DNA of 64,000 nucleotides, taken from positions 1 to 64,000 of the forward strand of contig JACZVC010000012.1 of the NCBI GenBank assembly GCA_022572885.1. The letters are read 5' to 3'. Origin of the DNA: Pseudomonadota bacterium (GTDB taxonomy: Bacteria > Pseudomonadota > Gammaproteobacteria > Steroidobacterales > MnTg04). Position numbers and translations under genes: made by a program. Below the pieces are notes generated by a model. That model was given only the letters and a program-made list of their open reading frames with translations, ran no database searches and had not been told where the DNA came from. Shown one piece after another: positions 326 through 33,247 of this stretch (position 1 is its first letter; each line of letters begins with the position of its first letter).

Positions 326-1759
326 CTACGGGACTACTAAGTCATTTGCTTGTGCCCGTTGCCAGGCGGCTTCCAGGTCCGTGCAGGATGGCCCGTCAAT
401 GGGGATTTCGTTACGCCCATGGCGGAAACTGGAAATGCTCCGGTAGACGTCGCGGCGCGCCCGGTTGAGGCTGCCCAGGGGCCTGTGTGCCTTTAGGCAA
501 TTCCAAGGTGAGAATGAAATGTGCTCACAAAGCCACATCATTTCGCTGGTGTCGAAGCGCTGTTTGGGTATCGTGAGGGTGCCTACCTTCACGGGCTCGG
601 ACAGCTTCTTCGACCAACTCACGGCCGCACGCTCCACTGGCATTTTGTATGGGTGCACCTGCCGTTGCACGTAAAAACCCAAGATCACGTCCCCTTGCTT
701 CAGTTGTTTCCGCAAGCCATGGCGCAGGAAGTCACGAGAACGGTCTTTTTCCACGGTCGGCGACGCAGACTTCAGCTCAACCTGAGCGGACTCCAGCTTG
801 AACGATTCGAACTTGACGATGAACTTGACGGCCAGCTTGTGGTTGCGCACACCGAACCGGTAAGCAGTAATGCTGTTCCAGGTGATTTCCGTCAGGATCC
901 TATGCCTTTTCACTGAAAGGAGGAGGTTGCGAATGACATACCATCGCCACGGTGCGATTAAGCAGTAGGCGAAGTAGATGAGTTTGAAGATACCGCCGCG
1001 TGTCACTGAGAAAGTCAGGTATTCGTACTGGCCGATATTATTCACAGGGAAAACATCGTGACTGACCAGGAGAAAGTCCTGCTCGTTTCGGGAAATACCA
1101 TCGTGTTCGAGTCGCTCGCCGGGTGGATGGCATATCTTGATCGCCATTCCACGCACATCTGGCTTGCCGTCCGGTTTAATGGATGGGCTGGAATTCGAGA
1201 AACGCACCCAGGCATCGTATTGGCCGTCTTTGGAATCTTTGGAAAACAGTCCCTGGCGCAGGTCTTTGGGTATGTCCGCAACAACCACCTTCAGCCGGGC
1301 CTTGACTAGGCCGTGGTGTTTTGGATGGGCATCGCGGCGTGTATCACCAGCCACGTAATCTGCCTTCAGCATGTTCAACAGGTTCCTCGCAATGCGGCCT
1401 GTGTGCTGAAACTGTGACGGTTGCGGGTATTCCTCTCCCAGCCTGAGGCTCTTGGCATAGCTCACCCAGGTTTCGATCTTTTCAGGTATGAAGGCCGACA
1501 GCGTAAACACCAGAGCCAAATAGGACATCAGGAATTTCCAGATCCCCCTTGATACGGGAGGGAGCCAGTACAAAAGGCATTTCACCATCACCCACAGCGC
1601 CGCCAGGACGACGGATAGGTATGCCATCGTCATGACGATGATGCGGAGCGCGACGATGATCAAGCCTGCCAAAAAATCAAACGTTCTCGACAGGAGTTTG
1701 CGCACCCAGTTGAATACGTCGCTCCCGATTTTCATGAGTGCAGCGAACAGGATTTTCAT
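326..1759 (-). CDS. catalase-fold haem protein with N-terminal membrane segments
   Basis: This is the last gene of a four-gene minus-strand operon. Residues about 25-100 are strongly hydrophobic (two or three membrane segments), so the protein is probably membrane-anchored. The rest resembles the minimal catalase-related family: HHGLVKARLKV with the distal His, then YDAWVRFSNSSPSIKPDGKPD and DVRGMAIK, and a C-terminal HRPLGSLNRARRDVYRS where the Tyr may be the haem ligand. Members of this fold act as catalases, peroxidases or fatty-acid hydroperoxide-converting enzymes, and the substrate cannot be read from sequence. I chose the ATG at 1759, 17 bp after the lipase stop; a TTG at 1813 would overlap the upstream gene. 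Confidence 0.8.
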   Translation of the reverse strand: MKILFAALMKIGSDVFNWVRKLLSRTFDFLAGLIIVALRIIVMTMAYLSVVLAALWVMVKCLLYWLPPVSRGIWKFLMSYLALVFTLSAFIPEKIETWVSYAKSLRLGEEYPQPSQFQHTGRIARNLLNMLKADYVAGDTRRDAHPKHHGLVKARLKVVVADIPKDLRQGLFSKDSKDGQYDAWVRFSNSSPSIKPDGKPDVRGMAIKICHPPGERLEHDGISRNEQDFLLVSHDVFPVNNIGQYEYLTFSVTRGGIFKLIYFAYCLIAPWRWYVIRNLLLSVKRHRILTEITWNSITAYRFGVRNHKLAVKFIVKFESFKLESAQVELKSASPTVEKDRSRDFLRHGLRKQLKQGDVILGFYVQRQVHPYKMPVERAAVSWSKKLSEPVKVGTLTIPKQRFDTSEMMWLCEHISFSPWNCLKAHRPLGSLNRARRDVYRSISSFRHGRNEIPIDGPSCTDLEAAWQRAQANDLVVP

Positions 1760-1775
1760 GAGACACCGAACATGG

Positions 1776-3131
1776 CTATGGCGTCGCCGATGCGGGGTAT
1801 ATCCGGCTGACAAAATCCGTGTACTTGGTCAAGCCGGTACCTTCGGCTGTACCTTCTGCGCGGATTTTCTCGATTGCGGCCAGGACCTCCGGATTGCCGA
1901 TCATATCGTCGTGCAGATCTTGGTTCTTGATGGCTTCCAGCGCCCAGATCTGATGGTCTGGATCTGGCAAAGGCAGGTAAGACGATTCAAACAGGATCAT
2001 GCCGTCGCCGTTGAACATCCGGCCGCGACCAGGCTTCGCCTGGCCGCTGATTTCCCAACCACTGCCTTTGTGCTGGCTGACAGACGACCAAGTCTCCTTT
2101 GAGCCGATACCAACAATGAGGAACATACGCTCTTTGAGGGCTTCATCGGCAAAGGAGAGCTCAAGATCCAGGTTTTGGTACCAAGCTTTTGCCCACTTCA
2201 GGCAGTCTTGGTTGGGGGCCCAAATTTCTTCAGCCTGGCCTTTCCGAGGTTTCTTATTTTTGAGCCGGCTTTTCCAGAGAGTTGGGTCATAGAGATCGCC
2301 GCCCTGTACTGGATATTTGAGATCGAGGGTGCCGCCATTCATCGGCAATTGTTTCAGCCATTGCTCGGCGGGTGCCAGCACCATCTGGTACATGCCAGGC
2401 ATGGTGGTTGCGATGTCCCTCAGTTTTTTATCGCTGAGGAAGAAATTCAATTTGGAAATGGTTGTCTTGCCGTCCTGGATGGTGCTGATGGCGCTCAAAA
2501 GCCCCCTGAAGGGCGGTGCGATGAAGATAATTTTGCCGATCTGGTCGTGGAGTTTTTTATTGTCCTGTAAAAACTTGAGCACGACGCAACCGCCCATGCT
2601 GTGCGTGACCAGGTCCACCGTCTCGATACTTTCTTCGGCGTCATAATCCAGCAAATCATTAAAAAACAGCTTAAGGCGCTTCGCTTCGGTCTCGATACGG
2701 TCGCGCCAGTCGTAGGAAAATACGCCCGGCCGCAGGCATTTCAGGAAATTCCGGTAGCCTGGGGATAGCACTAGCCAAGATCTCATCGGTGCCCTGGCCA
2801 TTATGTAGTTGTCCACCCGGTCGTAGGAGCTGTTTAGTCTGGGTTCCTTGAAGCCCAGCCGAACAAGCTTGCTCGGGAAAACGATGACGCGCGGGTCAAA
2901 CCAGAGGGTCTGTTGTCTGCGGGCATCCCAAAGCGTACTCATCATAAACCCGGGTACAAACAGCAACGGGCGTTTTTCTCTTTCCCGATCGACGGTCGGC
3001 ACTTCGCCAAGTATGCGCTGAAAACCCCACTTCAGCCCCGGCCGGGGGCCAACGGTCCTTTCGATCCAGTTCGGCCAAAGCCGTTGCTTGTAATACTTGT
3101 GCTTGTACAAGTCTTTTGCGCTGTCAGACAT
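1776..3131 (-). CDS. LCAT/PGAP1-like alpha/beta-hydrolase (putative lipase)
   Basis: A 451-residue alpha/beta-hydrolase. LLFVPGFMMSTLWD near residue 57 is the oxyanion region after the first strand. VDLVTHSMGGCVVLKFLQ carries the nucleophile elbow (HSMGG), and SYDWRD upstream of it is typical of lecithin:cholesterol acyltransferase-like and phospholipase-like hydrolases. There is no signal peptide. The gene starts 13 bp after the DyP stop and ends 17 bp before the catalase-fold gene, so the genes are cotranscribed. A lipid esterase between two haem-peroxidase-fold proteins suggests release of acyl chains that the neighbours then oxidise or detoxify; this is inferred from context. Confidence 0.8.
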   Translation of the reverse strand: MSDSAKDLYKHKYYKQRLWPNWIERTVGPRPGLKWGFQRILGEVPTVDREREKRPLLFVPGFMMSTLWDARRQQTLWFDPRVIVFPSKLVRLGFKEPRLNSSYDRVDNYIMARAPMRSWLVLSPGYRNFLKCLRPGVFSYDWRDRIETEAKRLKLFFNDLLDYDAEESIETVDLVTHSMGGCVVLKFLQDNKKLHDQIGKIIFIAPPFRGLLSAISTIQDGKTTISKLNFFLSDKKLRDIATTMPGMYQMVLAPAEQWLKQLPMNGGTLDLKYPVQGGDLYDPTLWKSRLKNKKPRKGQAEEIWAPNQDCLKWAKAWYQNLDLELSFADEALKERMFLIVGIGSKETWSSVSQHKGSGWEISGQAKPGRGRMFNGDGMILFESSYLPLPDPDHQIWALEAIKNQDLHDDMIGNPEVLAAIEKIRAEGTAEGTGLTKYTDFVSRIYPASATP

Positions 3132-3143
3132 TGCAGGCTACCT

Positions 3144-4766
3144 TTAGATACCGGCCAGGTAGCGCAGGGCGCGAATGCCGGGCATGAAGAAATAGGCACC
3201 GCCGCGGACATGAACGAAACGTTTCAGGCCGTCGAGTCGCCGCTGGACCGGCTCTTGCTGGATCGTGAAGTGGCCACTCGGCCATTTCGGGCGGAACGGA
3301 GAACCGGGCAAGGGATCGACGACATTTTTTGATGCGCTATGATCCCCCATGATCGGGTCCGGGTCCTCGGAAAGGCCGCCAAATTTCGGACTCATGATCC
3401 AGGCCGATTGAATGGACTCAAACTGCCGGGCGATATTGGCATTGAAGCACATGAAATGCAGTCCCCGGACCAGTTCACCTGGATTGTTGTCGACCACCGT
3501 GTCTTTGGCCCCCCATTTATTTCCCCACGCTTTTTCCGGACATATGGTAGTCCCGTTTCCCTTGATGAAATCCTGTCCCGCCAACGGCGGCCCATAGGCC
3601 CGGCCCCGGCGGATGATGCGGTGATGCCGGCCGTGTACCGAGGACTTTTCAGATGCACCAGGGAAAGAATCTCGGGGATTGGTACGGCGCATGTGTGACC
3701 CGAAGGGGCAACGGAAACCATAGCGGTCGATGTCATAGAACCCGAAGCCGTCTTCGTCTTGCAGTGCAGGATTGTCCGAAAACGGCGCCAGTACCATGGG
3801 GGCTCCACTCGGCCAGCGTCCGACCATCTTGGACGCCAGCCAAGTACCCTGCTGTACATCACCAGTGACTTGTTCGCGCACGAATTTCCAGAAACCGGGC
3901 ACATCCTGGGACAATTGCCGGAACACCAGGAAGCTGCCGTTGCGGCCGAAATGATTGTTATTCTTGGTCTTGGGTGGGATCGGGAAACGTTGGTATATGT
4001 TGGGGTAGCCGAACAGGAACTCGCCCGCATCGATGACATTATCCGGTCGGCCACTGACGCCAGATCCTTTTACCACAGGCTGAGCAATACCGTCGCGGAA
4101 TCCGAAATGTTCCTTACGCCCGGGTAATAACCGCGTCGAAAGTACCCGGACAACCTTCATGCCGTTTTCCTGGAAATCTTTACCCGATTCTTTTTCATCC
4201 CCAGATGCCTCGCCCCCAGGTGTTCCACCCCACGGGGAGGCCGTTTTGAAGCCGACATCCCCACCAGCGACTTTGTTGTACAGATTTGCCAATTGCGCCT
4301 CGTCCGGCGCATACAGCATCACTAACAGGTGGATCTCCTTTCCCAGATCGCCGCGCTCGAGTTCGTCGCTGTCATAGCCCCAGACCCATTTGTAAGGCGC
4401 GCTTTCACCAATATCGCCCAGCAATCTCTGGCGATGATGGATGTGGGGGGAATCCTCGGGATGCTCGCTCTTACCGTGATCCTCGGGTCCGACCATGCCC
4501 TCATGGAACTGCCGGGATACCTGTTCGAAAATGCCCTTGGTCTCGTCGAATTTGTCCAGTCCCGGGCGGGTGAAGGCGATATTCAGGCACCGGTCGCGAC
4601 GTAACTTGACGGGCTTTCGCGTGGCATTCGTAAAGCTGGTTCGCTTTAGCCATTCCCGCAATCGATCGACATCAGTGATTTGCAACAAGACCAGGCAGGC
4701 GGCATCCATTTCCTCGTAACCGCGGAGGATGATGCCCTGGATGTCTTCGCGTTCCAGTTCGCTCAT
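3144..4766 (-). CDS. DyP-type haem peroxidase
   Basis: A 540-residue dye-decolourising-type peroxidase. It has the GXXDG signature (FGFRDGIAQPVVKG), with the distal catalytic Asp, and the C-terminal GSHMRRTNPRD, in which the His is the expected proximal haem ligand. These enzymes use H2O2 to oxidise bulky or aromatic substrates. No Tat or Sec signal is visible, so it is probably cytoplasmic. It is longer than small encapsulated DyPs and resembles the large DyPs found beside catalase-fold and lipase genes. Its ATG overlaps the TGA of the upstream gene (ATGA), so the two are translationally coupled. Confidence 0.92.
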   Translation of the reverse strand: MSELEREDIQGIILRGYEEMDAACLVLLQITDVDRLREWLKRTSFTNATRKPVKLRRDRCLNIAFTRPGLDKFDETKGIFEQVSRQFHEGMVGPEDHGKSEHPEDSPHIHHRQRLLGDIGESAPYKWVWGYDSDELERGDLGKEIHLLVMLYAPDEAQLANLYNKVAGGDVGFKTASPWGGTPGGEASGDEKESGKDFQENGMKVVRVLSTRLLPGRKEHFGFRDGIAQPVVKGSGVSGRPDNVIDAGEFLFGYPNIYQRFPIPPKTKNNNHFGRNGSFLVFRQLSQDVPGFWKFVREQVTGDVQQGTWLASKMVGRWPSGAPMVLAPFSDNPALQDEDGFGFYDIDRYGFRCPFGSHMRRTNPRDSFPGASEKSSVHGRHHRIIRRGRAYGPPLAGQDFIKGNGTTICPEKAWGNKWGAKDTVVDNNPGELVRGLHFMCFNANIARQFESIQSAWIMSPKFGGLSEDPDPIMGDHSASKNVVDPLPGSPFRPKWPSGHFTIQQEPVQRRLDGLKRFVHVRGGAYFFMPGIRALRYLAGI

Positions 4767-6277
4767 AATGCTTCCGTGGTGCCGCCAAACAGCCGTAGCC
4801 AGTTCTTCGCCTCGTCCGCAGTCATTTTTTTTCTGTGCAGGGCTTGCCTGATTCTCGAGTTACGATTGATCTCGATGATGGACAGGTAGGGGTAGGCGCT
4901 GTACCAGAGGTGGGTCTCGATCATTGAATTGCGGGAATAGGCCTTGAAGGCTTGTTCGTCCTTGGCGCCCTTGGTGATCAGCCAGCGTGTACGGGGAAAA
5001 GCATGGGCGTGGGTCCAGATCAAGGTCAGCCCAGCCGCCGCATTTTCGACGAACTCGCTGAGGTAGTTCTCCCAACTGCTGTTGTAATTGCTCATGAACA
5101 GCAAAACGGGCGGCCTGCCAAAAATAGCCCAGCGGGCGAAATGGATCGAAGAAATACCACCCAGCTGGCCCTTTGTGTCACTGAACCTAGCCACCCAGCG
5201 GACAAACCACAGCACCAATTCCAGGCTAACAAGACGAAATAGCCCGGATTTGACCAGGATGGCGCTGGACATTGGGTTCTGTAGGATGTGCTCTTCGTTT
5301 TTGACGAACTTTACCGGATCGGGCTGAGTCAACTCGTCGTATTCGTCATTGATCTCGTGCCAGTTCAACACAACGACGAGGTAAAGTAGAGGGCCAAACA
5401 CGGCGAGCAGCGCCCAACCAGGATCGAACGCCCCGGTCCATGACCATGCAGCTGAAACCCCGAGCAGCGCAGCCAGCGCCGGCACCGCCGCGTAAACAAA
5501 AAAGGCAATTAGCGGCAGGCCCAGCAGGAAGCCGACGTAGGTGACCAAGAAACCGGACAGTCCGGCATCCGTGATTAATCGCGTCAGCCAGGGAAGTTGC
5601 GGTGGTGGTTCGTCTTCGGGTTTGAATCCTTTTTTGATCTCCTTCCAGACCGCAACCGGGTCGCGTTCCTGCCATTTTTTTCCGGTGAGATGGTCGGAAA
5701 TGTTCTGTCGAAGTTCTTTCTCGTACTTGATTTGTTTTACCGTTCGTCCGCGTGCGCCGACAAAAGGCGCATTGGCATAATCCCGGCCACGGTGCTTACT
5801 CATGAATTTGCGCAGATTCTCGCGGTCGCTGTCATCCAGGGGCAGGTTCGCGATTTCATAGTTTTCGCAAAACCCGAAAACAGAGTTGAACATCTCGTGT
5901 AGTTTGCGGAATCTGGCGGGATCATCCTCCTCTGAATGGGAGTCTTCGGCATTGGCCTCTTGATTACCGGTTTCTGGTGGTAATAAGTCCAGCAGATGAT
6001 CTTGACCGATCTCGTCGTACCAGGTTTCGAAAAGTAACTGTGGTCGAAAAACGCTCATATCGCTGCGCTTGACGTCGATGATGACAAGACGAGCGAAATG
6101 CACGTTCTTCACAGCTTTGAAAGGTGAGTCTGGCTTGGTGTTGCCCGCGGAGCTATACCAGTCGTGCCGCAGTTTGTATAAAGCTTCCTGGAGTTTGCCT
6201 TCCATGCCGTCCTTGATCGACACGATCACGGATAGGAAAGTCTGCTGGATCGGTCGTCTGTTTTTCCAATTATTCAT
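4763..6277 (-). CDS. conserved membrane protein of the DyP operon, with two similar ends
   Basis: First gene of the operon, about 504 residues, family not recognised by name. The two ends resemble each other: near residue 65 NVHFARLVIIDV leads to QLLFETWYD, and near residue 365 SIHFARWAIFG leads to VLLFMSNYNSSWENYL. This suggests a duplicated ferredoxin-like half-domain, a fold also used by DyP and Dabb-type proteins. Between the halves lie two or three membrane segments (about 230-310, for example GFLVTYVGFLLGLPLIAFFVY). An acidic linker follows the first half. The protein is perhaps a membrane partner of the peroxidase or lipase. Start: ATG at 6277 behind a GGGGA; a GTG at 6292 is also possible. 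Confidence 0.7.
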   Translation of the reverse strand: MNNWKNRRPIQQTFLSVIVSIKDGMEGKLQEALYKLRHDWYSSAGNTKPDSPFKAVKNVHFARLVIIDVKRSDMSVFRPQLLFETWYDEIGQDHLLDLLPPETGNQEANAEDSHSEEDDPARFRKLHEMFNSVFGFCENYEIANLPLDDSDRENLRKFMSKHRGRDYANAPFVGARGRTVKQIKYEKELRQNISDHLTGKKWQERDPVAVWKEIKKGFKPEDEPPPQLPWLTRLITDAGLSGFLVTYVGFLLGLPLIAFFVYAAVPALAALLGVSAAWSWTGAFDPGWALLAVFGPLLYLVVVLNWHEINDEYDELTQPDPVKFVKNEEHILQNPMSSAILVKSGLFRLVSLELVLWFVRWVARFSDTKGQLGGISSIHFARWAIFGRPPVLLFMSNYNSSWENYLSEFVENAAAGLTLIWTHAHAFPRTRWLITKGAKDEQAFKAYSRNSMIETHLWYSAYPYLSIIEINRNSRIRQALHRKKMTADEAKNWLRLFGGTTEAL

Positions 6278-6505: not shown

Positions 6506-8263
6506 ATGGCCGACAACCCTCCCCGGGAAAAAGTCTCACTCTTGGCAGAGTTGCAGCGCCGCAAGGTGTTCCGGGTTGGTGCGGCCTACGCTTTTATCGG
6601 TTGGCTTTTTATCCAGGTCGGCGCAGATATTTTTCCGGCGTTAGAATTCCCGCACTGGGCGTTGCCACTACTGATCTGGCTGGTGCTACTGGGTTTCCCG
6701 GTTGCGCTGGTGGTGGCATGGGCCTATGAGCTCACATCCAGGGGAGTGGAATTCGATCAGCGCCCGATGAGTTTCCGGGTCGCCAGAATATCGAAGGTTA
6801 TTCTGGTGCTGATCATCGGCCTCACCGTAAGCATCATTGGTTTCTCCGTGTTCCGCTACCAGGCCGAGCGGTTGACGCAAATAAATTCCCTCGCTGTGTT
6901 GCCGTTCAAAAACCTGAGCTCTGACCCCGCCGGGGTGATTTTCGCGGAAGGCCTCGCGGAAGAGTTGCTGAGCCGTTTTTCCAGGATCAAGGCACTAAAG
7001 GTGCCGGGCCGACGCTCCACAAAATTGGTCGCCGAGCGAAGCCAGGACTTGGCAGAGATGGGCAAAACCCTGGGCGTTCAAGCAGTACTGGAAGGCGGCG
7101 TGCGTTGGAGTTCCGGTGGAGGCAACGAGGCCATCGTCAAGATTGACCTGCGGCTGCTCAAGGTGGCCGACGGGCTGACCATCTGGACCCGTTCCTATAC
7201 CCGCAGGCTGGATAATATCTTCGAATTACAGGAAGAGATCGCCACCGAGGTGGTGGGCGCCCTGCAGGTGGAGATGCTAACGGCAACCGGGAGCACTGTA
7301 AAACCGACATTCAGCGTTGAAGCATACGAACTTTATCTCAAGGGGCGCGCAGCCTATTACAAGCGGGAGTATGCGTCCATGATCCAATCCATCGCGTACT
7401 ACGAACAAGCCATTGCAGTCGATCCGGACTTCGCCAAAGCGTACAGCAGTCTGGCAGAGGCTTGGGTTCTGCTGGCCATGTGGGGTTACGTGGACGCTTC
7501 CGAGGCGATGAGAAACAGCCTGCGCGCCGCCCAGAGAGCGCTACAACTTGATGATAGCCTGCCGGGTACACAGGTTGTGCTGGGTTCGATTGCCCACTGG
7601 CATGAATGGAACAACGAGAAGGCCGAACCGCACTTTCGGCGCGCTATTAAACTGGATCCGAATTACCCGACCACGCGCAACTGGTATTCGGTGTTCCTGG
7701 CTCATACCGGCAGAGCAGAGGAGTCGCTGAGTGAACTGGAACTGGCGTTAAGGCTGGATCCGGTCAATCCCATCATCAATGCACAGGTCGCCTACACCTA
7801 TCTGCACGCCGGCCGTTTCGAAGAGGCTGTAACCAGTGCCCAGAACGCCGTCGAGCTGGATCCCGGCTATATTCCCGCGCGTTATTACCTTGGCTGGGGT
7901 TACCAGATGACTGGTCAGTTCGAGGATGCGATTAGGGAATACCTACAGGTAGCGCAGCCGCTTCCCTTGTTCCGGCAGGTGCTGGCACAGGCTTATGCCG
8001 CAGCCGGGCGCCGCGAAGAGGCGATGCCCATACTGGATGAACTCATGGAGACCCGCGAGCGGGGCGAATTCTATGTTCCGGCGTACTTCACCGGGGTAAT
8101 TTATACTCAGTTGGGGGACTTCGACCAGGCCTTCAAGTGGTTGGACCTGGCTGTTGAAGAACGCTCGGTTCAGCTGGCCAAGATCGAGTATGACCCCTAC
8201 CTGATCCCACTTCATGACGATCCTCGCTTCGACGCCCTCAAAGAAAAGATTTGGCCCGATTGA
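6506..8263 (+). CDS. membrane protein with TolB/FlgO-like domain and TPR repeats
   Basis: 585 residues, divergent from the DyP operon. The N-terminus (LLAELQRRKVFRVGAAYAFIGWLFIQV) is the usual start of a large proteobacterial family in which two or three membrane helices precede a TolB-like/FlgO-like domain. Here that domain starts at SLAVLPFKNLSSDP and continues through FAEGLAEELLSRFSRI to GVRWSSGG and TRSYTRRLDNIFELQEEIA. The C-terminal half is at least five TPR repeats (AIAVDPDFAKAYSSLAEA, AIKLDPNYPTTRNWY, ALRLDPVNPI, AVELDPGYIPARYYLGW). In many relatives a cyclase or winged-helix domain precedes this architecture; it is absent here. The role is probably a membrane scaffold or regulator. 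Confidence 0.85.
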   Translation: MADNPPREKVSLLAELQRRKVFRVGAAYAFIGWLFIQVGADIFPALEFPHWALPLLIWLVLLGFPVALVVAWAYELTSRGVEFDQRPMSFRVARISKVILVLIIGLTVSIIGFSVFRYQAERLTQINSLAVLPFKNLSSDPAGVIFAEGLAEELLSRFSRIKALKVPGRRSTKLVAERSQDLAEMGKTLGVQAVLEGGVRWSSGGGNEAIVKIDLRLLKVADGLTIWTRSYTRRLDNIFELQEEIATEVVGALQVEMLTATGSTVKPTFSVEAYELYLKGRAAYYKREYASMIQSIAYYEQAIAVDPDFAKAYSSLAEAWVLLAMWGYVDASEAMRNSLRAAQRALQLDDSLPGTQVVLGSIAHWHEWNNEKAEPHFRRAIKLDPNYPTTRNWYSVFLAHTGRAEESLSELELALRLDPVNPIINAQVAYTYLHAGRFEEAVTSAQNAVELDPGYIPARYYLGWGYQMTGQFEDAIREYLQVAQPLPLFRQVLAQAYAAAGRREEAMPILDELMETRERGEFYVPAYFTGVIYTQLGDFDQAFKWLDLAVEERSVQLAKIEYDPYLIPLHDDPRFDALKEKIWPD

Positions 8264-11394: not shown

Positions 11395-11944
11395 CGTGAG
11401 ACCTAGCCCTGCATACACCGATTCCGAATTCATACTGGGCAGAAACCGGCTCACTTCTGGCCGGCGAGTACCCGGGCATGCGTTCTGAGCACCTGTCAAA
11501 GTCGAAGCTGGCCAGGTTTCTTGATTCAGGTGTTACATACTTTATTGATCTCACCGAAGCGGGAGAACTACGCCCGTACGAACCGGACTTGGAAAGGCTT
11601 GCAGAAGATCGGACTATCGATGTCTGTTATCGGCGCTTTCCCATACGAGATGGGGGGGTACCTCCGCACCAGGATGACCTACAACAGCTCCTGAACACTA
11701 TTAAAGGCGCCTTGTGCGCGCGCCATGTCGTGTACATCCACTGCCTGGGTGGAGTAGGCCGTACAGGTCTGGTTGTCGGTTGTTATCTTGCAGAAAAACA
11801 TCGGAGCGGTCGGCAAGGACTCGCGAAATTGCAGGATTTCTGGACAGAATGCGAAAAATCAGCCTATCGGCCAACAACGCCGGAAACTGAAGAACAACGC
11901 CAGTGGATCCTGGCCTGGGGGAGTGTGTAAACCGCGCAATAGCG
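11395..11944 (+). repeat. 550-bp phosphatase block, copy 1
   Basis: The block from CGTGAG (11395) to AGCG (11944) recurs with the same length at 26866-27415. Sequence similarity starts and stops abruptly on both sides and covers the whole phosphatase gene plus about 80 bp upstream and 14 bp downstream. Confidence 0.85.
11478..11930 (+). CDS. protein tyrosine/dual-specificity phosphatase, copy 1
   Basis: The CX5R signature is HCLGGVGRTG, with Cys as nucleophile, preceded by FIDLTEAGE and CYRRFPIRDGGVP (general-acid loop with Asp). The product is 150 residues from the ATG. The frame stays open and protein-like upstream of it: IPNSYWAETGSLLAGEYPG is the usual N-terminus of this family. That extension would begin at a CTG (11409) where relatives have an ATG, so translation either starts at a non-canonical CTG or yields an N-truncated protein. 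The second copy (26949-27401) shows the same thing and differs at 15 of 150 residues by my count. Confidence 0.8.
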   Translation: MRSEHLSKSKLARFLDSGVTYFIDLTEAGELRPYEPDLERLAEDRTIDVCYRRFPIRDGGVPPHQDDLQQLLNTIKGALCARHVVYIHCLGGVGRTGLVVGCYLAEKHRSGRQGLAKLQDFWTECEKSAYRPTTPETEEQRQWILAWGSV

Positions 11945-14570: not shown

Positions 14571-15713
14571 TCAGCGTCTTATGGTCGCATCCATGTCGAT
14601 CAGCCGATTCTTGAGGGCACCAAGCCGTTTAGCAGGTACATGGATCGCATTTGCGGCGCATTGTGCGCCGTGAGACAGGATCGCCAGCGCGTCGGCCCGC
14701 CCAATATAAGAGAGGGTCGTCGGGAATCCAGCCGAGTGCTTTGCTTCCTGGATCGTGTTGCCTTTGACCCACAGTTGTTCGTCGAGGTGCGAGACGGCGA
14801 TGTGCACACCGCATACATGGCAGCCGAGCCCAGATTCGACAATATCCATGATGAGTTCGTTCATTTTCGGCTGGGCGAGGTCGCCGGTCAGGCGGAACAC
14901 CTTGTCCGAAAAACGCAAGCGTTCGCCGTCGCGTACGACGCTCATTTCACGTCCGGCATTCGACAGGAACCATGTGTCGCCAGGGCCAAGTACGCGCTTG
15001 GCGTTTTTCTTGAGCAAAGGGTGAAAATTGTAAAGTGCTTGGTTGTCAACCAAACCGGCATCGATGAGCTGGAGTTCTGGTAATGACACCTTCGGGAAGA
15101 AGCCCGGGAAAGCCGTTGCCGATACGATACCGTGCGGCGCAGGAAGGTTTTCGACCCGCACGTCTTTCGGTATTCCGCGCTCGTAAAAATCTCTATCCGC
15201 CTCGAAGTATCTGCCTTCGTGAAAAGCAATGATGTGGCCGTCGTTGTAATTGAGCGACTGGAATATGAACACCGGATAGCATTGCGCGTCGCCGGGACTC
15301 ACATATTTGGCGAAGTTTTTGTCGAGCTTAAGCGGCTTTTCACGCAGTTCGAGGTTTCGCCACCAGGCATGAAGGTGCCGAAACCATGCTTCCTGTGCCC
15401 GAATGACGGCCCCACGCCAATGCCAGTTGAATTTGCCGAGGAACCGCGGACTGCCCTCGACGAGAGCGATCAAAGCTTCTTCGGGTGCGAAAGAGTCTTT
15501 ATCCTGGTCATACTCCTCCGATCGAAGGAACCGGTTCCAAATTTCTGCTGCGATTGCTCCACCTGAAACAGCATTTACAAGCACGTGAAGCCGGTCAGGT
15601 TCAAGGTTCGGTCGAAGAATGTCGGCTTCGTGCAGCGTGCGAAGAACACCGGCATTGAATAAGGCGGCGCGGTATCCGCCACCGGACAGCGAAATGAGGT
15701 AGCGATTGTTCAT
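14571..15713 (-). CDS. patatin-like phospholipase
   Basis: 380 residues from the ATG at 15713; a TTG at 15758 is less likely. ISLSGGGYRAALFNAG is the Gly-rich oxyanion hole, VNAVSGGAIAA the nucleophile elbow with catalytic Ser, and LIDAGLVDN carries the catalytic Asp of the dyad. The family cleaves membrane phospholipids. Stand-alone patatins occur in defence islands and as effectors of CBASS-type systems, but no cyclase is nearby. It sits between two repeat/miniature-element units, like a cassette. Confidence 0.88.
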   Translation of the reverse strand: MNNRYLISLSGGGYRAALFNAGVLRTLHEADILRPNLEPDRLHVLVNAVSGGAIAAEIWNRFLRSEEYDQDKDSFAPEEALIALVEGSPRFLGKFNWHWRGAVIRAQEAWFRHLHAWWRNLELREKPLKLDKNFAKYVSPGDAQCYPVFIFQSLNYNDGHIIAFHEGRYFEADRDFYERGIPKDVRVENLPAPHGIVSATAFPGFFPKVSLPELQLIDAGLVDNQALYNFHPLLKKNAKRVLGPGDTWFLSNAGREMSVVRDGERLRFSDKVFRLTGDLAQPKMNELIMDIVESGLGCHVCGVHIAVSHLDEQLWVKGNTIQEAKHSAGFPTTLSYIGRADALAILSHGAQCAANAIHVPAKRLGALKNRLIDMDATIRR

Positions 15714-15904
15714 GGCAAAGGCTCCAAGTGGCCTCGAGGGCAAGGGCCCCATAGCCAAGTATAGACGACGCGTAATCTTTGTCGCTGCACGAAACCGACA
15801 GTCAGTTCAACACCCTTGGGACGCTTGTTTCAGTCGGAGCCGTTGCAGTGGGTGATTTCCTCGTCGCCTTTCATATCGGTCGAGAGTAATCGATCTTGAC
15901 CGGC

Positions 15905-18286: not shown

Positions 18287-18864
18287 GCTCGAATAATACA
18301 GGAAGTTCCGTCAGTTCCCACAACTGCAAAATCGGGCCTGAATGCAGCCCTTCTTGCCGATCTGCGCGCCGACGAAATCGGCGTATTTCTGCACGGGATT
18401 TTACCTAAACAATACCTAAGTTCAACGAGTTTCGGTCACTTACCACATAACTCATTGAAAAATATGGCGTCCCCAGGGGGATCTGGACGTTGCGCTAACG
18501 CCAGATCTCGGTATCCCCCTCAGGATCGAGATCCGGCGTGCCCTGAAGTCTACCACCGCCACCCCAGTAGTGAGTGAGCGCAATAGATTGCGCTCTGGTC
18601 CATGACTGGGATTTGACTTGGTAGACAGTGTCAGAAGGCTAATGCCCGTTTAGGCTAATTGTGGGGCCATCTGACCAATCTTCTACTATACTTAGTGATA
18701 AACAACAAGGCCAAACCCGCCGAAAGACGGGGGCGAAAAGTTACGGGTCCTCGTTTCCTCCGAGAAGTTACGGACGACCTCCCGAAGGACCCAAAGACAA
18801 CCGGGCTGTCGAAGCTACAGCCGCATTGTCCGTGGAGCAGGCCCGAAGTTGAATGGAGGTACCC
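18287..18864. other. intergenic stretch before the TIR gene, with a long hairpin
   Basis: No convincing gene is seen. At 18476-18519 GGGGGAT and ATCCCCC enclose nested arms CTGG/CCAG and CGTT/AACG, giving a long interrupted hairpin without a T-run. A GGAGG (18855-18859) serves the TIR gene. The promoter of the TIR/SLOG genes is presumably here, but I cannot place it. Confidence 0.4.
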
Positions 18865-21018
18865 ATGGCCAGCTTGTCGGAAACGGGCGATCATCGATAC
18901 CAGGCCTTTATCAGCTACTGCCATCAGGATGAAAAATGGGGTGTCTGGCTTCATAGGGCGCTGGAGGGGTATCGCGTGCCCCGCTATTTGGTCGGCAAAA
19001 ACACCGCGCACACACTAATCCCCCGCCGCCTCACCCCGATTTTCCGCGATCGTGACGAACTGCCCACCGCAACTGACCTGGGTAAGGTCGTCAATGAAGC
19101 CTTACAGCGCTCAGCGTGTCTGATCGTCATCTGTTCGCCGCACGCTGCCCGCTCCCGCTGGGTCAATCAGGAGATTCTCAGCTTCAAGCGCTGGGGTCGT
19201 TCGGATCGCATCTTGTGCCTCATCGTCGAGGGCGAACCAAATGCAGCCGACAAACCAGAGCTGGAAGCCGAGGAGTGTTTTCCCGAAGCCTTGCGCTACG
19301 TTCTGGGCCCGGACGGGGCGCTGACTGACGCACGCACCGAACCGATTGCCGCCGATGTGCGGCCCCAGGGGGACGGCAAGGCCACCGCAAAGCTGAAGTT
19401 AATCGCCGGCCTGCTCGGTGTTGGTCTTGACGAGCTGAAGCATCGTGAACAGCATCGTCGCCATCAGCGCATGGCCGGTGTCACGGCGATGGCATTAGGC
19501 GTTATGGTAATTACAACTGTACTGGCAATAAAGGCGATCGTTGCTGAGCGCGAGGCACTACAACACCGTGCTCAAGCTGAAGGACTGATCAGTTTCATAT
19601 TGGGTGACCTGCGAGAAAAGCTGGAGCCTATCGGTAGGCTCGACGAGCTCGATAGCATCAGCGACAAAGCGTTGGAATATTTTGCCTCACTTACCGACAA
19701 GGACATTACGCAAGAGACATTGGCAATACGAAGCAAGGCACTGCGTCAAATTGGTGAGGTCCGCATGGCGCAGGGGCACCTCGGTCCAGCCATGGAAGCA
19801 TTCCAGCGGTCATTATCGGATGCAGAGCTGCTGGTACAACGCGAAGCTGAGAACAATGAAGCACTGTTCTTATTAGGTCAGGCTCATTTTTGGATCGGTT
19901 ACGTTCATAAGGAACAGGGCGATCTCGACCGCACGCTGCAACATCTTCAGAGGTACATGGACGTTTCGAAAATGCTGGTCGAAAGAGAGCCTGAGAATGA
20001 GAGGTGGCAGCGTGAACTTGGTTATGCGTATACGAATCTGGGTGCAGTTTATAGTGCACGCGGCGAAACCGATAATGCGCTCGAGCAATTTTTAGGTGAC
20101 CAGGCGATCGGGAAAGAACTGGTAGCCCGGAATCCCGATGACTTGAACATGCAGTTCGATCTGTCCGAAACAACATCGTGGGTAGGTTCGGCGCTAAGCG
20201 CGCTCGGCGATTTGGATGGTGCACTCGAACAGTTTCATGAGGAAGTCGCGATCAAAAACAGATTGGTTACCGCAGACTCTCAGAATACGGGGTGGAAACG
20301 GCGCTTGAGCCTCGGCCACCGGAGAGTCGGCGAAATTCTCGAGGCACAGGGTAAGTTGAACGAGGCGATCGATAGTTTTCGGACTGCGTTGAGAATCAGC
20401 GAAAACCTGGTTTCGCTGGACCCGAGCAACGCCAACTGGCGGCGGGACATCGGCGTGCTGCGGGCAGGCATGGGCCGCATTGCACTCGCACTCGATCATC
20501 CTGAAGAGGCCCTGATAAATTTCGGGAACTACATGCGGATCATCGAAACCCTGCTTGCCGAAGATGCCAGCAAAACCCGCTGGCAGAGAGACCTGGCTGA
20601 TGGCCGCATCCTCACCGGGAACGCCCTCAAGGTAAATGGCCACCTCGAAGACGCGGAATCTGCTGCAAAAAAAGCAGCTGAAGCTTTGCTAAGTCTTTTA
20701 TCTGAACATCCGGATGATCGTGAAGCTACACGCTTGCTCAGTGAAGCGTACCTGCTCGATGGTCAGTTGCTAGCGCTGTCAGGTAATGATGAACAGGCAC
20801 TTGCGGCCTGGTTAGAGTCACTCGAGCTCATTGAACCGCTGGCGCGAGCGACCAAAGATTATCGAATTCTGAATATAGAGGCACAAGTGCTTCTGCACCT
20901 GGATCGAATTGAAGAAGCGAGCCCCATTGTCGAGCAGCTTGCAGCGATGGGATTTGCGAATCCGGCTTTTGTCGGCCTGCGCGATAGCAAGGGCTTATCG
21001 GCAAGAGCCGTTCCATAG
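18865..21018 (+). CDS. TIR-domain membrane protein with TPR repeats
   Basis: 717 residues from the ATG behind GGAGG. TIR domain, residues about 10-130: YQAFISYCHQDEKWGVWL, PIFRDRDELPTATDLG and SRWVNQEIL, in which Glu103 matches the catalytic Glu of NAD-cleaving TIRs. One membrane helix (about 204-225) is followed by ISFILGDLREKLEPIGRLDEL, common in TIR- or kinase-TPR proteins, and then about eight TPR-like repeats to the C-terminus (for example YTNLGAVYSARGETDNALEQF). The TIR should face the cytoplasm. It is followed by an orphan gene and a SLOG-membrane gene on the same strand, suggesting a signalling or defence cassette. Confidence 0.88.
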   Translation: MASLSETGDHRYQAFISYCHQDEKWGVWLHRALEGYRVPRYLVGKNTAHTLIPRRLTPIFRDRDELPTATDLGKVVNEALQRSACLIVICSPHAARSRWVNQEILSFKRWGRSDRILCLIVEGEPNAADKPELEAEECFPEALRYVLGPDGALTDARTEPIAADVRPQGDGKATAKLKLIAGLLGVGLDELKHREQHRRHQRMAGVTAMALGVMVITTVLAIKAIVAEREALQHRAQAEGLISFILGDLREKLEPIGRLDELDSISDKALEYFASLTDKDITQETLAIRSKALRQIGEVRMAQGHLGPAMEAFQRSLSDAELLVQREAENNEALFLLGQAHFWIGYVHKEQGDLDRTLQHLQRYMDVSKMLVEREPENERWQRELGYAYTNLGAVYSARGETDNALEQFLGDQAIGKELVARNPDDLNMQFDLSETTSWVGSALSALGDLDGALEQFHEEVAIKNRLVTADSQNTGWKRRLSLGHRRVGEILEAQGKLNEAIDSFRTALRISENLVSLDPSNANWRRDIGVLRAGMGRIALALDHPEEALINFGNYMRIIETLLAEDASKTRWQRDLADGRILTGNALKVNGHLEDAESAAKKAAEALLSLLSEHPDDREATRLLSEAYLLDGQLLALSGNDEQALAAWLESLELIEPLARATKDYRILNIEAQVLLHLDRIEEASPIVEQLAAMGFANPAFVGLRDSKGLSARAVP

Positions 21019-23942: not shown

Positions 23943-25466
23943 ATGCAAACCATTAAACTAATCCACGAGATATGGGAGATAGATACGAAAAAAGCCCTAG
24001 GTTCACCTGGGGGCTTCGGTGAAGTTTTCCTAGGCAAAGGCAGCAGTGGGGAAGTAGCAATCAAGCAACTTAAACTAACCGCCACTCAAGCAGCGCATCG
24101 TGAGTTACAAATAGGACAATCTCTTTTCGAGCGTTCGCTACAACACGTCGTACCTATCCTAGATTATGGTCAGGATGCTGACTCTGATCGTTATTATATC
24201 GTCATGCCAGTCTGCGATCGGAGTTTACAAGATTACATCGATGACAAAGGCGTTGGTTCTCCAGCCGATTGCATCGAGATTCTATTAGCTATTCTTTGCG
24301 GGCTTAAAGAAGCGAAAGACATTACCCATAGGGATATAAAACCATTAAACATATTGATGCACGAGGCAAAATGGAAAATTGCAGATTTTGGCATTGCCAA
24401 GTTTGTGGAAGACTCTACATCCCTGGAGACTCTGAGAAACAGTCTCACACCGGCATATGCTGCTCCGGAGCAATGGTTATTGCAACGCCCTACTAGTGCA
24501 ACAGATATATATGCTGTTGGATGTATCGCACATGGTCTATCAACAGGTGCTCCGCCGTTTTCTGGTGATGTAGATTCACTGCGCGAACAACACCTAAAAG
24601 AGACCCCGGAATCTCTAGACAGCTTGCCTGCAAGCGTACGCGGTTTGGTGTCTCAGATGATGCGAAAAAATCCTGATATTCGGCCGAGTTTAGAGCGCTG
24701 TATAACTGTGCTTGAAAATGCAAGAGGCGGCGAACCGCAGAATGTTAGAGGGGTCGAAAAAAGACTTGCTAAAGCAGTTAGTGAACTTGCAGTTACACAA
24801 GCTAGAAAGGAAGCTGACCAGCAGGCAAGAGACGAGCGAAGACGTAATAGAGAGGCCGTTTTTGATGAAGCTGCGAGTGAGTTGGCCCAAATAAAAAAGA
24901 GACTATTTGGCGAAATAAATCATCACGCTCAAGATGTAAGGGAAAACACCTCCAACGACTCCGTTCTCCGAATTGGAAATGCTACTCTAGCTTTTGATAC
25001 AGCAGAAAGCGCATCGAGTGTCAGAGGATTGATAAGGAGTGATCTCGAACAGATTGGAGGAAGTGCAGGCTGGGGAGTGCATAAACAACAATCGAAATGG
25101 GACATAGTTGCCTTTACTAATATCTCAATTGAGCAAATAGGTGATCATAACTTCTATAAACGTTGTGCAAATATCGTTTTTGGCAGGCCCAGCAATGATT
25201 CTGATTACCGGTGGTATGAAATGGCATTCTGGTCCTTATCTTCGTCGCCAGTCGGATGGGCCGACAGTTACCCATTTTGCCTAGACTATGTATGGGAGAT
25301 TGATGAAGCTCTTTCCAGTGTAATGGCCGTGAATAATCTAGCCTATGATCCTGTGCCCATAGACGCTGAAGACGCAGATTCCTTTATAGAATATTGGATG
25401 GATATCGTGACCCAAGCAATTGTCGGCAAACTTGTGAAACCCTCACATATGCCAATGAATCGATAA
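23943..25466 (+). CDS. Hanks-type Ser/Thr protein kinase with unique C-terminal domain
   Basis: 507 residues. Kinase domain 1 to about 260: Gly loop GSPGGFGEVF, Lys in EVAIKQL, catalytic loop HRDIKPLNIL, DFGIAKF and APEQW, all intact. A charged coiled coil follows (about 270-330, KAVSELAVTQARKEADQQAR), then a roughly 170-residue domain I do not recognise, rich in Trp and Tyr (GWGVHKQQSKWDIVAF, YRWYEMAFWSLSSSPVGW). There is no membrane helix, so it is cytoplasmic. Base composition is A+T-rich against the core genes. Solitary kinases of this type occur in phage-defence islands. Two tyrosine-phosphatase genes lie nearby, but they are not cotranscribed with it. Confidence 0.85.
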   Translation: MQTIKLIHEIWEIDTKKALGSPGGFGEVFLGKGSSGEVAIKQLKLTATQAAHRELQIGQSLFERSLQHVVPILDYGQDADSDRYYIVMPVCDRSLQDYIDDKGVGSPADCIEILLAILCGLKEAKDITHRDIKPLNILMHEAKWKIADFGIAKFVEDSTSLETLRNSLTPAYAAPEQWLLQRPTSATDIYAVGCIAHGLSTGAPPFSGDVDSLREQHLKETPESLDSLPASVRGLVSQMMRKNPDIRPSLERCITVLENARGGEPQNVRGVEKRLAKAVSELAVTQARKEADQQARDERRRNREAVFDEAASELAQIKKRLFGEINHHAQDVRENTSNDSVLRIGNATLAFDTAESASSVRGLIRSDLEQIGGSAGWGVHKQQSKWDIVAFTNISIEQIGDHNFYKRCANIVFGRPSNDSDYRWYEMAFWSLSSSPVGWADSYPFCLDYVWEIDEALSSVMAVNNLAYDPVPIDAEDADSFIEYWMDIVTQAIVGKLVKPSHMPMNR

Positions 25467-25636: not shown

Positions 25637-26368
25637 CTATATCTGCAAATTTATTCTTGCTTCTTCGGACATTCTTGACCAATCGTCCGACACGCTACCA
25701 ATGCGATTACGATTATTAGTTCCTTGCTGACTTGGGTGAGATTGCGCCCAGATTCTGACTTCACCATGGCTAAATGGCGAATCGATTGCTTGAGTTAAGT
25801 AATCGACTCTATCCATACCAATGCCTTTGCGGATGGCATTAATTACGTCTTTGCCAAGGCATATTACAACTTTGGGCGACACCACTTCTATCTGAGGAAT
25901 GGCGAACTCAACGGCGGCGGCAGTCAAATCTCTCATCGGAATTGATGCATTCATTGCACCCTTCTTAATGAAAGGAAAAAGGTTGGTTCCAAAGGTGTCC
26001 TGCAAGGAGAGGCCAAAGTGGACCTTCAAAAGAGCCCTGAGATTCTTATTTGTCCGCACGCTCGGATCATATCCGAACTCAATGCTATCCCTGCCGTGCT
26101 CACCAACTGGGCCGCTGAGCTGTTCATCTGAGCTCCAATCTTTGAGAATGAACATCACTTCAGCGTCAACGTTACCGGCTGTTTTGGTATATGGCGATAC
26201 GTGATCGCACTCATACACACCGTCCCAGTAATCACCAATACCTGTATAGCCCTCATAGATTTTGGATTGACGCAATTTCGCGAGCGCAAGTAGTTGTTCA
26301 GACTTATTCACTTCATTATTGTCCCAAGTGGCGCCAATTGATACATTATGCTTGTGAGCAGCGATCAT
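25637..26368 (-). CDS. uracil-DNA glycosylase superfamily-like protein
   Basis: 243 residues. The pattern AEVMFILKDWSS, then TNLFPFIKKGAMN, PQIEVVSPKVVICLGKDVINAI and the C-terminal AQSHPSQQG resembles the UDG superfamily: strand plus motif after the first Asp region, the central VICLG strand, and HPS in the last motif. The usual catalytic motif GEAPG or GQDPY is replaced by LKDWSS, so uracil excision is doubtful. Relatives occur in restriction and defence contexts. Its start overlaps the divergent gene 26348-26836 by 21 bp. Confidence 0.65.
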   Translation of the reverse strand: MIAAHKHNVSIGATWDNNEVNKSEQLLALAKLRQSKIYEGYTGIGDYWDGVYECDHVSPYTKTAGNVDAEVMFILKDWSSDEQLSGPVGEHGRDSIEFGYDPSVRTNKNLRALLKVHFGLSLQDTFGTNLFPFIKKGAMNASIPMRDLTAAAVEFAIPQIEVVSPKVVICLGKDVINAIRKGIGMDRVDYLTQAIDSPFSHGEVRIWAQSHPSQQGTNNRNRIGSVSDDWSRMSEEARINLQI

Positions 26369-26866: not shown

Positions 26867-27415
26867 GTGAGGCGCAGCCCTGCATACACCAATTCCGAAT
26901 TCATACTGGGTAGAATCTGGCTCACTTCTGGCCGGCGAATACCCGGGGATGCGTTCTGAGCACCTGTCAAAGTCCAAGCTGGTCAGGTTTCTTGAGTCAG
27001 GTGTCACATACTTTATTGATCTCACCGAAGCGGGAGAAATACGCCCGTACGAACCGGACTTGGAAGGGCTTGCAGAAGATCGGGCTATCGATGTCTGTTA
27101 TCGGCGCTTTCCCATACGAGACGGGGGGGTACCTCCGCACCAGGATGACCTACAACAGCTCCTGAACACCATTACAGAGGCTTTGTGTGCACGCCATGTC
27201 GTATACATCCACTGCCTGGGTGGAATAGGCCGTACAGGTCTGGTTGTCGGTTGTTATCTTGCAGAAAAACATGGGAGCGGTCCGCAAGGACTCGCTAAAT
27301 TGCAGGGATTTTGGACAAAATGCGAAAAATCCGCCTATCAGACAACAACGCCGGAAACTGAAGAACAACGCCAGTGGATCCTGGCCTGGGGGAGTGCGTA
27401 AACCGCGCCATAGCG
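26866..27415 (+). repeat. 550-bp phosphatase block, copy 2
   Basis: Equal in length to the copy at 11395-11944, with abrupt ends (CGTGAG, AGCG). The left end falls on a truncated palindromic repeat. The two copies lie in different tandem elements of the island. Confidence 0.85.
26949..27401 (+). CDS. protein tyrosine/dual-specificity phosphatase, copy 2
   Basis: 150 residues with an intact CX5R loop (HCLGGIGRTG) and the Asp loop FPIRDGGVP. The frame extends upstream through IPNSYWVESGSLLAGEYPG to a CTG at 26880, exactly as in copy 1, so the same non-canonical start question applies. Both copies keep open frames and catalytic residues, and they differ mainly at surface-type positions, which points to selection for function after duplication. 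Confidence 0.8.
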   Translation: MRSEHLSKSKLVRFLESGVTYFIDLTEAGEIRPYEPDLEGLAEDRAIDVCYRRFPIRDGGVPPHQDDLQQLLNTITEALCARHVVYIHCLGGIGRTGLVVGCYLAEKHGSGPQGLAKLQGFWTKCEKSAYQTTTPETEEQRQWILAWGSA

Positions 27416-27759: not shown

Positions 27760-29391
27760 ATGCGCGATTTTCGGCTAACCCTTAAGAATTACCGGTGTTT
27801 CAGAAATGATGTACCCGTATCCATCGATTTACGAAGAGGTTTTACGGCATTAGTCGGGCCTAATAACTCTGGCAAGTCTACAATATTGAAGTTTACACAT
27901 GAGCTAAAAGACCTTTGGGGACAATTTGTCCCTCAAAGTGGGGCTATTGGGACCGCGCTAAGAGGTGAAATGATAGGGGTAACTTATCGTGATGTCAGTG
28001 ATCCGTTGGAGCTATTTTGCAATTCAAATTCAGATGGACTTTCATTCAAAATTGAACTATTAGAGACGGAACCAGTTGTGCCCGGCACACAACCGATCGT
28101 CGGTGTGTCGGGTTTTGCAGAGCGGGCAAGCCCAACCAATTGGAAAATGCAATTCTTGTATGGCGCTAAGCGTAAGCAAGTTGATTCTGCCTCATCCAAT
28201 AGAAAGCACCCAATATGGACCTCAGATCCAAACCAAGCTTTAGCCGTCTGGGGAAATACGCAATACGACTTTTCGTCGATATTAGAGTTACTGTCTCAGC
28301 TTAATCGATGTCTCTATATTCCGCCGTTCCGAAATGCAATCAACGAAGGATCAGGAACGTACTATGGAATAACCGTTGGTAGTAGTTTTATAGAAACGTG
28401 GAATACTTGGAAAGGAGGTGGAAGGATATCGCAAGCGAAGGTAATTGAAAATGTTACGGAGGACATAAAATCATTGTTCGCTTTTGAAAAATTTGAGGTA
28501 AACGCATCAAGCGATAGAAAAGAACTACGGGTAAATATCGACAGTCAACCATACAGACTGGCGGAGTTAGGGTCTGGATTGGCTCAATTCATAATAATAT
28601 TTGGGAATGCTGCGATATCGAAACCTCCTCTGATAATGATCGACGAGCCGGAATTAAATCTGCATCCGTCGCTTCAAATATCATTCCTTTCAGCTTTGGC
28701 GCGGTATGCAGATGGAAATATCATTTTTGCAACTCACTCCGTAGGACTGGCGAGGTCAACTGCTGAGAGTATTTATTCATTTCGATTAGGGCCAGGGCGA
28801 GTACCGATTGTTTCTAGTTTTGAACAAACGCCAAATTACGCGGAATTCGTCGGAGAGATGTCGTTCTCTGCATTCAAGGAACTGGGTTGTGAATCCATTC
28901 TGCTTGTAGAGGGAGTGACAGACGTAAAGACGTTCCAACAATTTCTTCGGAAACTCAAGAAAGAAGCAAGTGTTGTCGTGATACCTCTCGGCGGAGATGC
29001 AATGGTATGCGGTGGAAGAGAGATTGAATTGGGAGAATTAACGAGGATCACACCAAAGGTCTTCGCTATCGTCGACAGTGAGCGTAAAGGGAAAGGCAAG
29101 GCGCCATCGAAAAATCGGAACGAATTCAAAAAATCATGCGAGAACCTCAATATTACCGTCCATCTTACAGAGCGCAGAGCGACGGAGAACTACTTCACAG
29201 ACGAGGCAGTGAAGGCGGCTTGCGGTGAGAACTTTTCAGCGTTGGGAGATTTCGAGAATCTGAAATCTAGCTCAAATGCGTGGAACAAAACTCAACACAA
29301 TTGGCAGATTGCAAGTCGGATGACAAAGGAAAATCTTGAAGACACCGACGTAGGTCGATTTCTAATTAGTGTCTTAGACATACCGAAGTAA
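27760..29391 (+). CDS. OLD-family ATPase-TOPRIM nuclease
   Basis: 543 residues. An ABC/SMC-like ATPase occupies the first two thirds: FRLTLKNYRCFRN, Walker A GPNNSGKST, signature-like LAELGSGLAQ, Walker B PLIMIDEPELNLHPSLQ, and ATHS. A TOPRIM domain follows: ILLVEGVTDVKTFQQFL, VIPLGGD and FAIVDSERKGKG, with the acidic residues expected to bind Mg2+. This is the plan of OLD nucleases and of GajA-type defence proteins. No UvrD-like (GajB) or DUF4435 partner is adjacent, so it is a stand-alone class. A+T-rich composition suggests recent transfer. Confidence 0.9.
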   Translation: MRDFRLTLKNYRCFRNDVPVSIDLRRGFTALVGPNNSGKSTILKFTHELKDLWGQFVPQSGAIGTALRGEMIGVTYRDVSDPLELFCNSNSDGLSFKIELLETEPVVPGTQPIVGVSGFAERASPTNWKMQFLYGAKRKQVDSASSNRKHPIWTSDPNQALAVWGNTQYDFSSILELLSQLNRCLYIPPFRNAINEGSGTYYGITVGSSFIETWNTWKGGGRISQAKVIENVTEDIKSLFAFEKFEVNASSDRKELRVNIDSQPYRLAELGSGLAQFIIIFGNAAISKPPLIMIDEPELNLHPSLQISFLSALARYADGNIIFATHSVGLARSTAESIYSFRLGPGRVPIVSSFEQTPNYAEFVGEMSFSAFKELGCESILLVEGVTDVKTFQQFLRKLKKEASVVVIPLGGDAMVCGGREIELGELTRITPKVFAIVDSERKGKGKAPSKNRNEFKKSCENLNITVHLTERRATENYFTDEAVKAACGENFSALGDFENLKSSSNAWNKTQHNWQIASRMTKENLEDTDVGRFLISVLDIPK

Positions 29392-33217: not shown

Positions 33218-33247
33218 TGGGGGCAACTCATTAAGGTGATAGCATAC

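Follow-up and report, generated by a model that had tools for sequence, protein, structure and literature searches.

Catalase-related proteins of corals act on fatty-acid hydroperoxides (PDB 3dy5). In the cyanobacterium Nostoc punctiforme, a linoleate 10S-dioxygenase and a catalase-related hydroperoxide lyase are described as working in tandem, and in fungi a dioxygenase is fused with a P450 in the linoleate diol synthases and allene oxide synthases (PMC13049297). What DyP peroxidases do physiologically, and on which substrates, has been described as unclear, and the DyP of Deinococcus radiodurans, DR_A0145, which has been called class V, is reported to be inactive at physiological pH, with questions about its substrate still open (PMC10820274). 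The present analysis concerns a predicted operon on the minus strand at positions 326-6277 of the window, that is, of the whole 64,000-nt stretch of DNA analysed, which starts at base 1 of its contig in a genome of 2.76 Mb. Its open reading frames encode, in this order, a 504-residue protein referred to here as HFAR, a DyP peroxidase, an LCAT-like hydrolase and a catalase-like protein.

The DyP and its unnamed HFAR partner constitute what is apparently a widespread and undescribed bacterial partnership. A search of about 85,000 species genomes with an HFAR profile returned 338 relatives, of which the best 80 were kept with their flanks, and these, together with added plasmid and genome matches, make up a set of 94 HFAR loci. 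Every one of them (94/94) has a DyP next to HFAR or in one chain with it, the counts being of loci and not of independent events, with Mesorhizobium and Streptomyces over-represented in the best-80 set. Likewise, the best 20 plasmid relatives of the DyP have an HFAR-type neighbour in 20/20 cases, although in the plasmids of Streptomyces NBC_01340 and NBC_01562 the neighbours clearly match the half-HFAR profile only. The pair takes several forms: two separate genes, a single HFAR-DyP chain in Rhizobium, a P450-HFAR-DyP chain of about 1,400-1,600 residues in Mesorhizobium, Novosphingobium, Sulfitobacter and others, or a separate half-size HFAR beside the DyP in Granulicella, Deinococcus, Roseomonas, Agrobacterium, Acinetobacter, cyanobacteria and Streptomyces. 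No description of the association was found in the open PMC papers searched, which covered DyP with P450, catalase, oleate hydratase and fatty-acid hydroperoxides. On a plasmid of Sinorhizobium chiapasense (L151, 3594-8965), hemA, an HFAR half, a DyP, a NIPSNAP protein and a second HFAR half are encoded consecutively.

The third haem partner is a P450, either in the operon or in the same chain, at 41/80 genome loci and a catalase-like protein at 20/80, and the two are never found in one operon (0/80). P450 reading frames at three Amycolatopsis loci (L024, L034 and L044) were not counted as operon partners because of their opposite orientation and scores of 26-52 bits. In gammaproteobacterial genomes, HFAR and catalase-like genes occur together in 5/6 versus 9/363 (p 2e-7, uncorrected for relatedness). 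A homologue of fatty-acid alpha-dioxygenases lies at most 9 kb away in 17 of the 20 catalase-type loci versus none of the 41 P450-type loci (Fisher p 2e-12, likewise uncorrected). This homologue matches PF03098 (E 2.2e-103) and the rice alpha-dioxygenase 4kvj (E 6.7e-115), and has a VYRMH segment with the Tyr and the His kept. Two more catalase-type loci encode di-haem cytochrome-c-peroxidase-like proteins with CxxCH motifs, and the oleate 10S-dioxygenase of Pseudomonas is a member of a di-haem cytochrome-c-peroxidase-type subfamily (PMC4496055).

Other genes recur in the catalase-type loci. A 146-residue family of unassigned fold, c3, is encoded near HFAR in 18/20 of them and is fused to HFAR in Amycolatopsis and others; its members (e.g. 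L069, 6547-6984, and relatives) match nothing in Pfam or NCBIfam. What looked like a fusion of alpha-dioxygenase and HFAR in Amycolatopsis proved to be an out-of-frame overlap, the real fusion there being c3-HFAR. One gammaproteobacterium (G371) has a minus-strand run of dioxygenase, CAT2, c3, HFAR, DyP and CAT, and another (G149) has HFAR, DyP and CAT. The catalase-like protein and the alpha-dioxygenase are themselves fused in Rhizobium phaseoli and in one gammaproteobacterium (L139, 4926-7754; L145, 6357-9620). A set of catalase, HFAR half and DyP adjoins oleate hydratase and 3-hydroxyacyl-CoA dehydrogenase genes (Roseomonas mucosa, Agrobacterium pusense and A. tumefaciens plasmids), and in D. 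radiodurans and Acinetobacter lwoffii the HFAR-half, DyP and catalase set adjoins a 3-hydroxyacyl-CoA dehydrogenase. Since a single mobile cluster accounts, in nearly identical copies, for at least two of these contexts, they represent few independent events.

Because alpha-dioxygenase, oleate hydratase, 3-hydroxyacyl-CoA dehydrogenase and lipase genes are found as neighbours, and because there is the precedent of the coral and Nostoc catalase-related proteins, we infer acyl hydroperoxides as substrates. We give an even chance to the reading that the operon encodes a membrane-associated haem-enzyme assembly, most likely processing fatty-acyl hydroperoxides or related oxidised acyl chains. The initial annotation of this DNA had proposed the processing of oxidised membrane lipids and had made this depend on the genes clustering elsewhere. 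The recurring fatty-acid enzymes favour the hydroperoxide part of that proposal, and membrane lipids may be the substrate. The clustering recurs for HFAR and DyP and, in part of the loci, for the catalase-like gene, but the link to the lipase did not extend beyond the window.

As that annotation had claimed, the four genes are closely coupled. The HFAR (6277-4763) and DyP (4766-3144) genes overlap by 4 bp, and gaps of 12 bp and 16 bp separate DyP from LCAT and LCAT from the catalase-like gene, counting from the ATG at 1759; an alternative TTG start of the latter, at 1813, overlaps the LCAT gene. This spacing is the layout of one predicted transcription unit. The contig ends only 326 bp beyond its downstream side. 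None of the four proteins matched PHROGs. Among the loci compared, the complete four-gene set was seen only in the window, whose operon can best be described as a divergent member of the catalase-type HFAR-DyP group, with a lipase. The features, with their basis in brackets, are as follows.

4763-6277, minus strand: HFAR protein, 504 residues (open reading frame, predicted structure, hydropathy)
5678-6256, minus strand: N-terminal ABM-type half of HFAR, residues ~8-200, HFAR motif with His60 (hhalign of N versus C half; strands and helices of the model)
5351-5566, minus strand: transmembrane hairpin of HFAR, residues ~238-309 (hydropathy; model helices 240-281 and 286-310)
4778-5305, minus strand: C-terminal ABM-type half of HFAR, residues ~325-500, IHFARW with the invariant His379 and LLFMSNYxxSWENYL (alignment, model)
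3144-4766, minus strand: DyP-type peroxidase, 540 residues, with GxxDG (Asp225), His358 and the conserved Arg (TIGR01413, PDB match)
1776-3131, minus strand: LCAT-like alpha/beta hydrolase of the lipase/acyltransferase family, THSMGG nucleophile motif (PF02450)
326-1759, minus strand: catalase-like haem protein, 477 residues from the ATG, distal motif HPKHHG (His145), proximal Tyr439 (alignment, predicted structure)
1487-1696, minus strand: N-terminal hydrophobic stretch of the catalase-like protein, residues ~22-91, probable membrane anchor (hydropathy up to 2.44; long model helices)
6506-8263, plus strand: divergent membrane TPR protein, possible regulator (related to cyclase/TPR proteins)

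Cyclase/TPR proteins related to the last of these precede the P450-HFAR-DyP genes in 23 loci.

At the sequence level HFAR has no Pfam, NCBIfam or PDB match. The internal repeat noticed in the initial annotation is real: profiles of the N-terminal and C-terminal halves align over 145 columns (hhalign, 99.3% probability, E 2.5e-20), with HFAR falling on HFAR and LLFE on LLFMSNY, so that the halves are homologous, with membrane helices between them. The AlphaFold model (predicted local distance difference test score, pLDDT, 84; predicted template modelling score 0.86) consists of two ABM-type halves with a ferredoxin-like fold, separated by a pair of long hydrophobic helices, and the two domains form a barrel, as in the ABM or dimeric alpha-beta barrel fold. 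If the helices form a hairpin, both halves would lie on the same face of the membrane and make up a single pseudodimer barrel, and HFAR is probably the membrane platform of the system. The window HFAR is divergent, with at most 34% identity to the others in the tree and a long branch; a genome scan with its single sequence gave no matches, an alignment-based search being required, and no other HFAR was found in 20 near relatives of the window's genome.

The fold of HFAR bears on two further explanations. Its best structural matches are polyketide ABM enzymes, WhiE-ORFI (9lmn; Z 13.0 over 227 residues, covering both halves) and then AbxO (9ltx; Z 9.7), whereas Foldseek with the model found no match below 1e-3. 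HFAR could thus be an oxygenase, cyclase or decarboxylase in the synthesis of a specialised polyketide or aromatic metabolite, with P450, DyP and catalase-like protein tailoring the product, and the resemblance of the catalase-like model to chanoclavine synthase, a catalase-fold enzyme, fits this too. Nevertheless, the neighbours examined, which are part of all neighbours, include no recognisable polyketide synthase or scaffold enzyme of another kind, the recurring ones are fatty-acid enzymes and HFAR carries a membrane hairpin, so we hold this explanation to be quite unlikely. The ABM fold, together with the invariant His379 and near-invariant His60 in the alignment of relatives and the hemA gene that adjoins one HFAR-half-DyP pair, would also suit a haem-binding or haem-handling protein of the IsdG/HmoB kind that loads or regulates the DyP, the lipid genes being incidental. 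The similarity to IsdG, IsdI and HmoB is weak, however, with low Z values of 3.3-3.8, and such a role would not account for the neighbouring genes for alpha-dioxygenase, oleate hydratase and lipase; it appears decidedly improbable.

The DyP of the window is a predicted class-V-like DyP peroxidase. It matches TIGR01413 with E 2.9e-28 and 99.1 bits, slightly below the cut-off of 100.5, and its closest solved chain is 8re3 (E 1.5e-37), the nearest PDB chains being the Deinococcus DyP and D-type DyPs. It has the GxxDG motif, the proximal His and the distal Arg expected of DyP-type (class V) enzymes, and Asp225 in GFRDG, His358 and the Arg are conserved across 91 DyPs. In D. radiodurans, the DyP gene that matches the 8re2/8re3 chain in sequence has an HFAR-half gene on one side and a catalase-like gene on the other.

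The second haem-peroxidase fold that had been proposed for this operon, next to DyP, is likewise supported. At E up to 1, Pfam assigns the catalase-like protein to no family, the monofunctional catalase profile included, and a PDB sequence search gives just a weak match to 3e4w, but its AlphaFold model (mean pLDDT 66.9) has the catalase-related fold of the MAP-2744c and coral allene oxide synthase type, with Z 20.2 to 3e4y, 19.3 to 3dy5 and 19.1 to 1u5u. Its ~70 hydrophobic N-terminal residues suggest a membrane anchor. The proximal Tyr haem ligand and the distal His of catalase-related proteins are present in the window protein, as Tyr439 and His145, whereas 20 other HFAR-linked catalase-like proteins keep the Tyr and have Asn at the distal position (RAGNTKTYG versus RDAHPKHHG in the window). 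In the tree, the proteins linked to double and to half HFAR form well separated groups, the place of the window protein being unsure, and at least two lineages probably gained or retained the association of the catalase fold with HFAR-DyP. An independent recruitment of the window protein could not be shown (approximately unbiased test, p 0.227).

These proteins could also serve a general peroxide defence, in which the two haem enzymes dispose of H2O2 or organic peroxides and the lipase clears damaged lipids, with no specific product. Both folds are peroxide-using, the window protein has the distal His and D. radiodurans carries the half-HFAR, DyP and catalase set. Yet this His of catalase chemistry is missing in most HFAR-linked relatives, a P450 is often the partner instead, the dioxygenase homologue near most catalase-type loci is not a detoxifier and the Deinococcus DyP is reported to lack activity at physiological pH (PMC10820274). 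We therefore consider peroxide defence rather unlikely.

The LCAT-like protein matches PF02450 (E 3.7e-10, 40 bits, cut-off 21) and has the Ser nucleophile elbow THSMGG, as expected for this family. As a conserved member of the system it was rejected, with only weaker alpha/beta hydrolase matches elsewhere. Genes for patatin-like membrane proteins are found in 8 HFAR loci, with weak Pfam support, and such genes accompany Streptomyces HFAR loci. In the window, too, a patatin-like phospholipase is encoded at 14571-15758, 8 kb from the operon (PF01734, E 8.4e-8).

For the preferred reading, acyl-hydroperoxide processing at the membrane, the following mechanism can be proposed. HFAR, whose two ABM-type ferredoxin halves are connected by a transmembrane hairpin, would dock the dedicated DyP at the membrane, the pairing being taken from genome context. 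The LCAT-like hydrolase, judging by its family, may release acyl chains from membrane lipid, and the membrane-anchored catalase-like protein would rearrange, cleave or reduce the acyl hydroperoxide in the manner of its coral and Nostoc relatives. The DyP could then carry out a further peroxidatic step, for which HFAR would bind the substrate or activate the enzyme. In relatives, a P450 substitutes for the catalase-like protein. The hydroperoxide is probably produced by the alpha-dioxygenase homologue in catalase-type relatives, and in the window it may stem from autoxidation, reactive oxygen or a further enzyme. More tentatively, and with the odds somewhat against it, DyP-HFAR may form the core of a class of haem multi-enzymes in bacterial membranes that has so far gone unrecognised and serves oxylipin-type chemistry; class V DyPs would then be dedicated partners of ABM-fold proteins, not dye/H2O2 peroxidases, and P450 or catalase-like modules would alternate.

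Several observations weigh against the preferred reading. The HFAR tree needs just 2 partner changes, so the mutual exclusivity of P450 and catalase-like protein rests on few independent events, and repeated swapping between them was not supported. Oxygen-activating P450s have an acid-alcohol pair at a given position of the I-helix. The P450s fused to HFAR have PTN or similar there and several unfused ones DTT, so that the canonical acid-Thr pair is kept by several P450s of P450-type loci and not by others. No dioxygenase is found among the recorded window genes, on a contig that ends just past the operon, and the adjacency seen in Nostoc is thus absent; searches of the window's genome for An_peroxidase and lipoxygenase, which had no positive control, were negative. 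Conservation of the HFAR-DyP core does not extend to the LCAT gene, a lipase of this type being found in this role in the window only. Finally, the distal His sets the window protein apart from the 20 other HFAR-linked proteins, so that a single reaction may not apply to all.

The first 33 kb of the window have a lower G+C content and look like an island inserted at ssrA, with an integrase adjoining the tmRNA (33382-33737) and smpB (31991-33737 in all). It carries defence-like genes for a TIR-TPR protein (18853-21018), a PD-T4-6/mad6-like kinase (23943-25466), a UDG-like protein (25637-26368) and an AriA/OLD-like ATPase (27760-29391), as well as a near-identical pair of dual-specificity phosphatase genes 15 kb apart (11478-11930 and 26949-27401). 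Given this setting, the operon might be defence-island cargo, namely an anti-phage system that damages membranes, but none of the four proteins matched a PADLOC family and the relatives are mostly in metabolic settings, which makes this explanation very improbable.

The near-invariant pairing of DyP with an unnamed protein, the P450 or catalase-like partners and the dioxygenase neighbours lead to the concrete hypothesis that lipid hydroperoxide or oxylipin chemistry takes place at the membrane, a possible answer to the natural role of such peroxidases. HFAR would be the component missing from DyP assays. D. radiodurans offers a ready test case, as it carries an HFAR-half and DyP pair whose DyP has a solved structure and, alone, is reported inactive at physiological pH.

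Compared with known systems, WhiE-ORFI and AbxO (ABM/SchA-like) share with HFAR the two ferredoxin-like domains per chain, but they are polyketide enzymes with ~9-10% identity to it and without the transmembrane hairpin. The fungal fusions combine a haem peroxidase-family enzyme and a P450 in one chain, as do the P450-HFAR-DyP fusions, although their peroxidase domain is COX-like and not DyP, and the window has no P450. The coral allene oxide synthase-lipoxygenase fusion (3dy5, 1u5u) has a catalase fold acting on a fatty-acid hydroperoxide and is similar to the window protein (Z ~19), its lipoxygenase partner being in the same chain whereas DyP, HFAR and lipase are separate genes in the window. 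The Nostoc tandem, for which the available text mentions no DyP or HFAR partner, and which differs from the window with its lipase and no dioxygenase found, couples an animal-haem-peroxidase-type dioxygenase to a catalase-related protein that uses the resulting hydroperoxide, an arrangement also suggested for catalase-type HFAR loci. In D. radiodurans the HFAR partner is a single half without the hairpin, and the neighbour is a 3-hydroxyacyl-CoA dehydrogenase in place of the window's lipase; nonetheless, DR_A0145 (8re2, 8re3) is the nearest solved structure to the window DyP, and its gene is flanked by HFAR-half and catalase-like genes.

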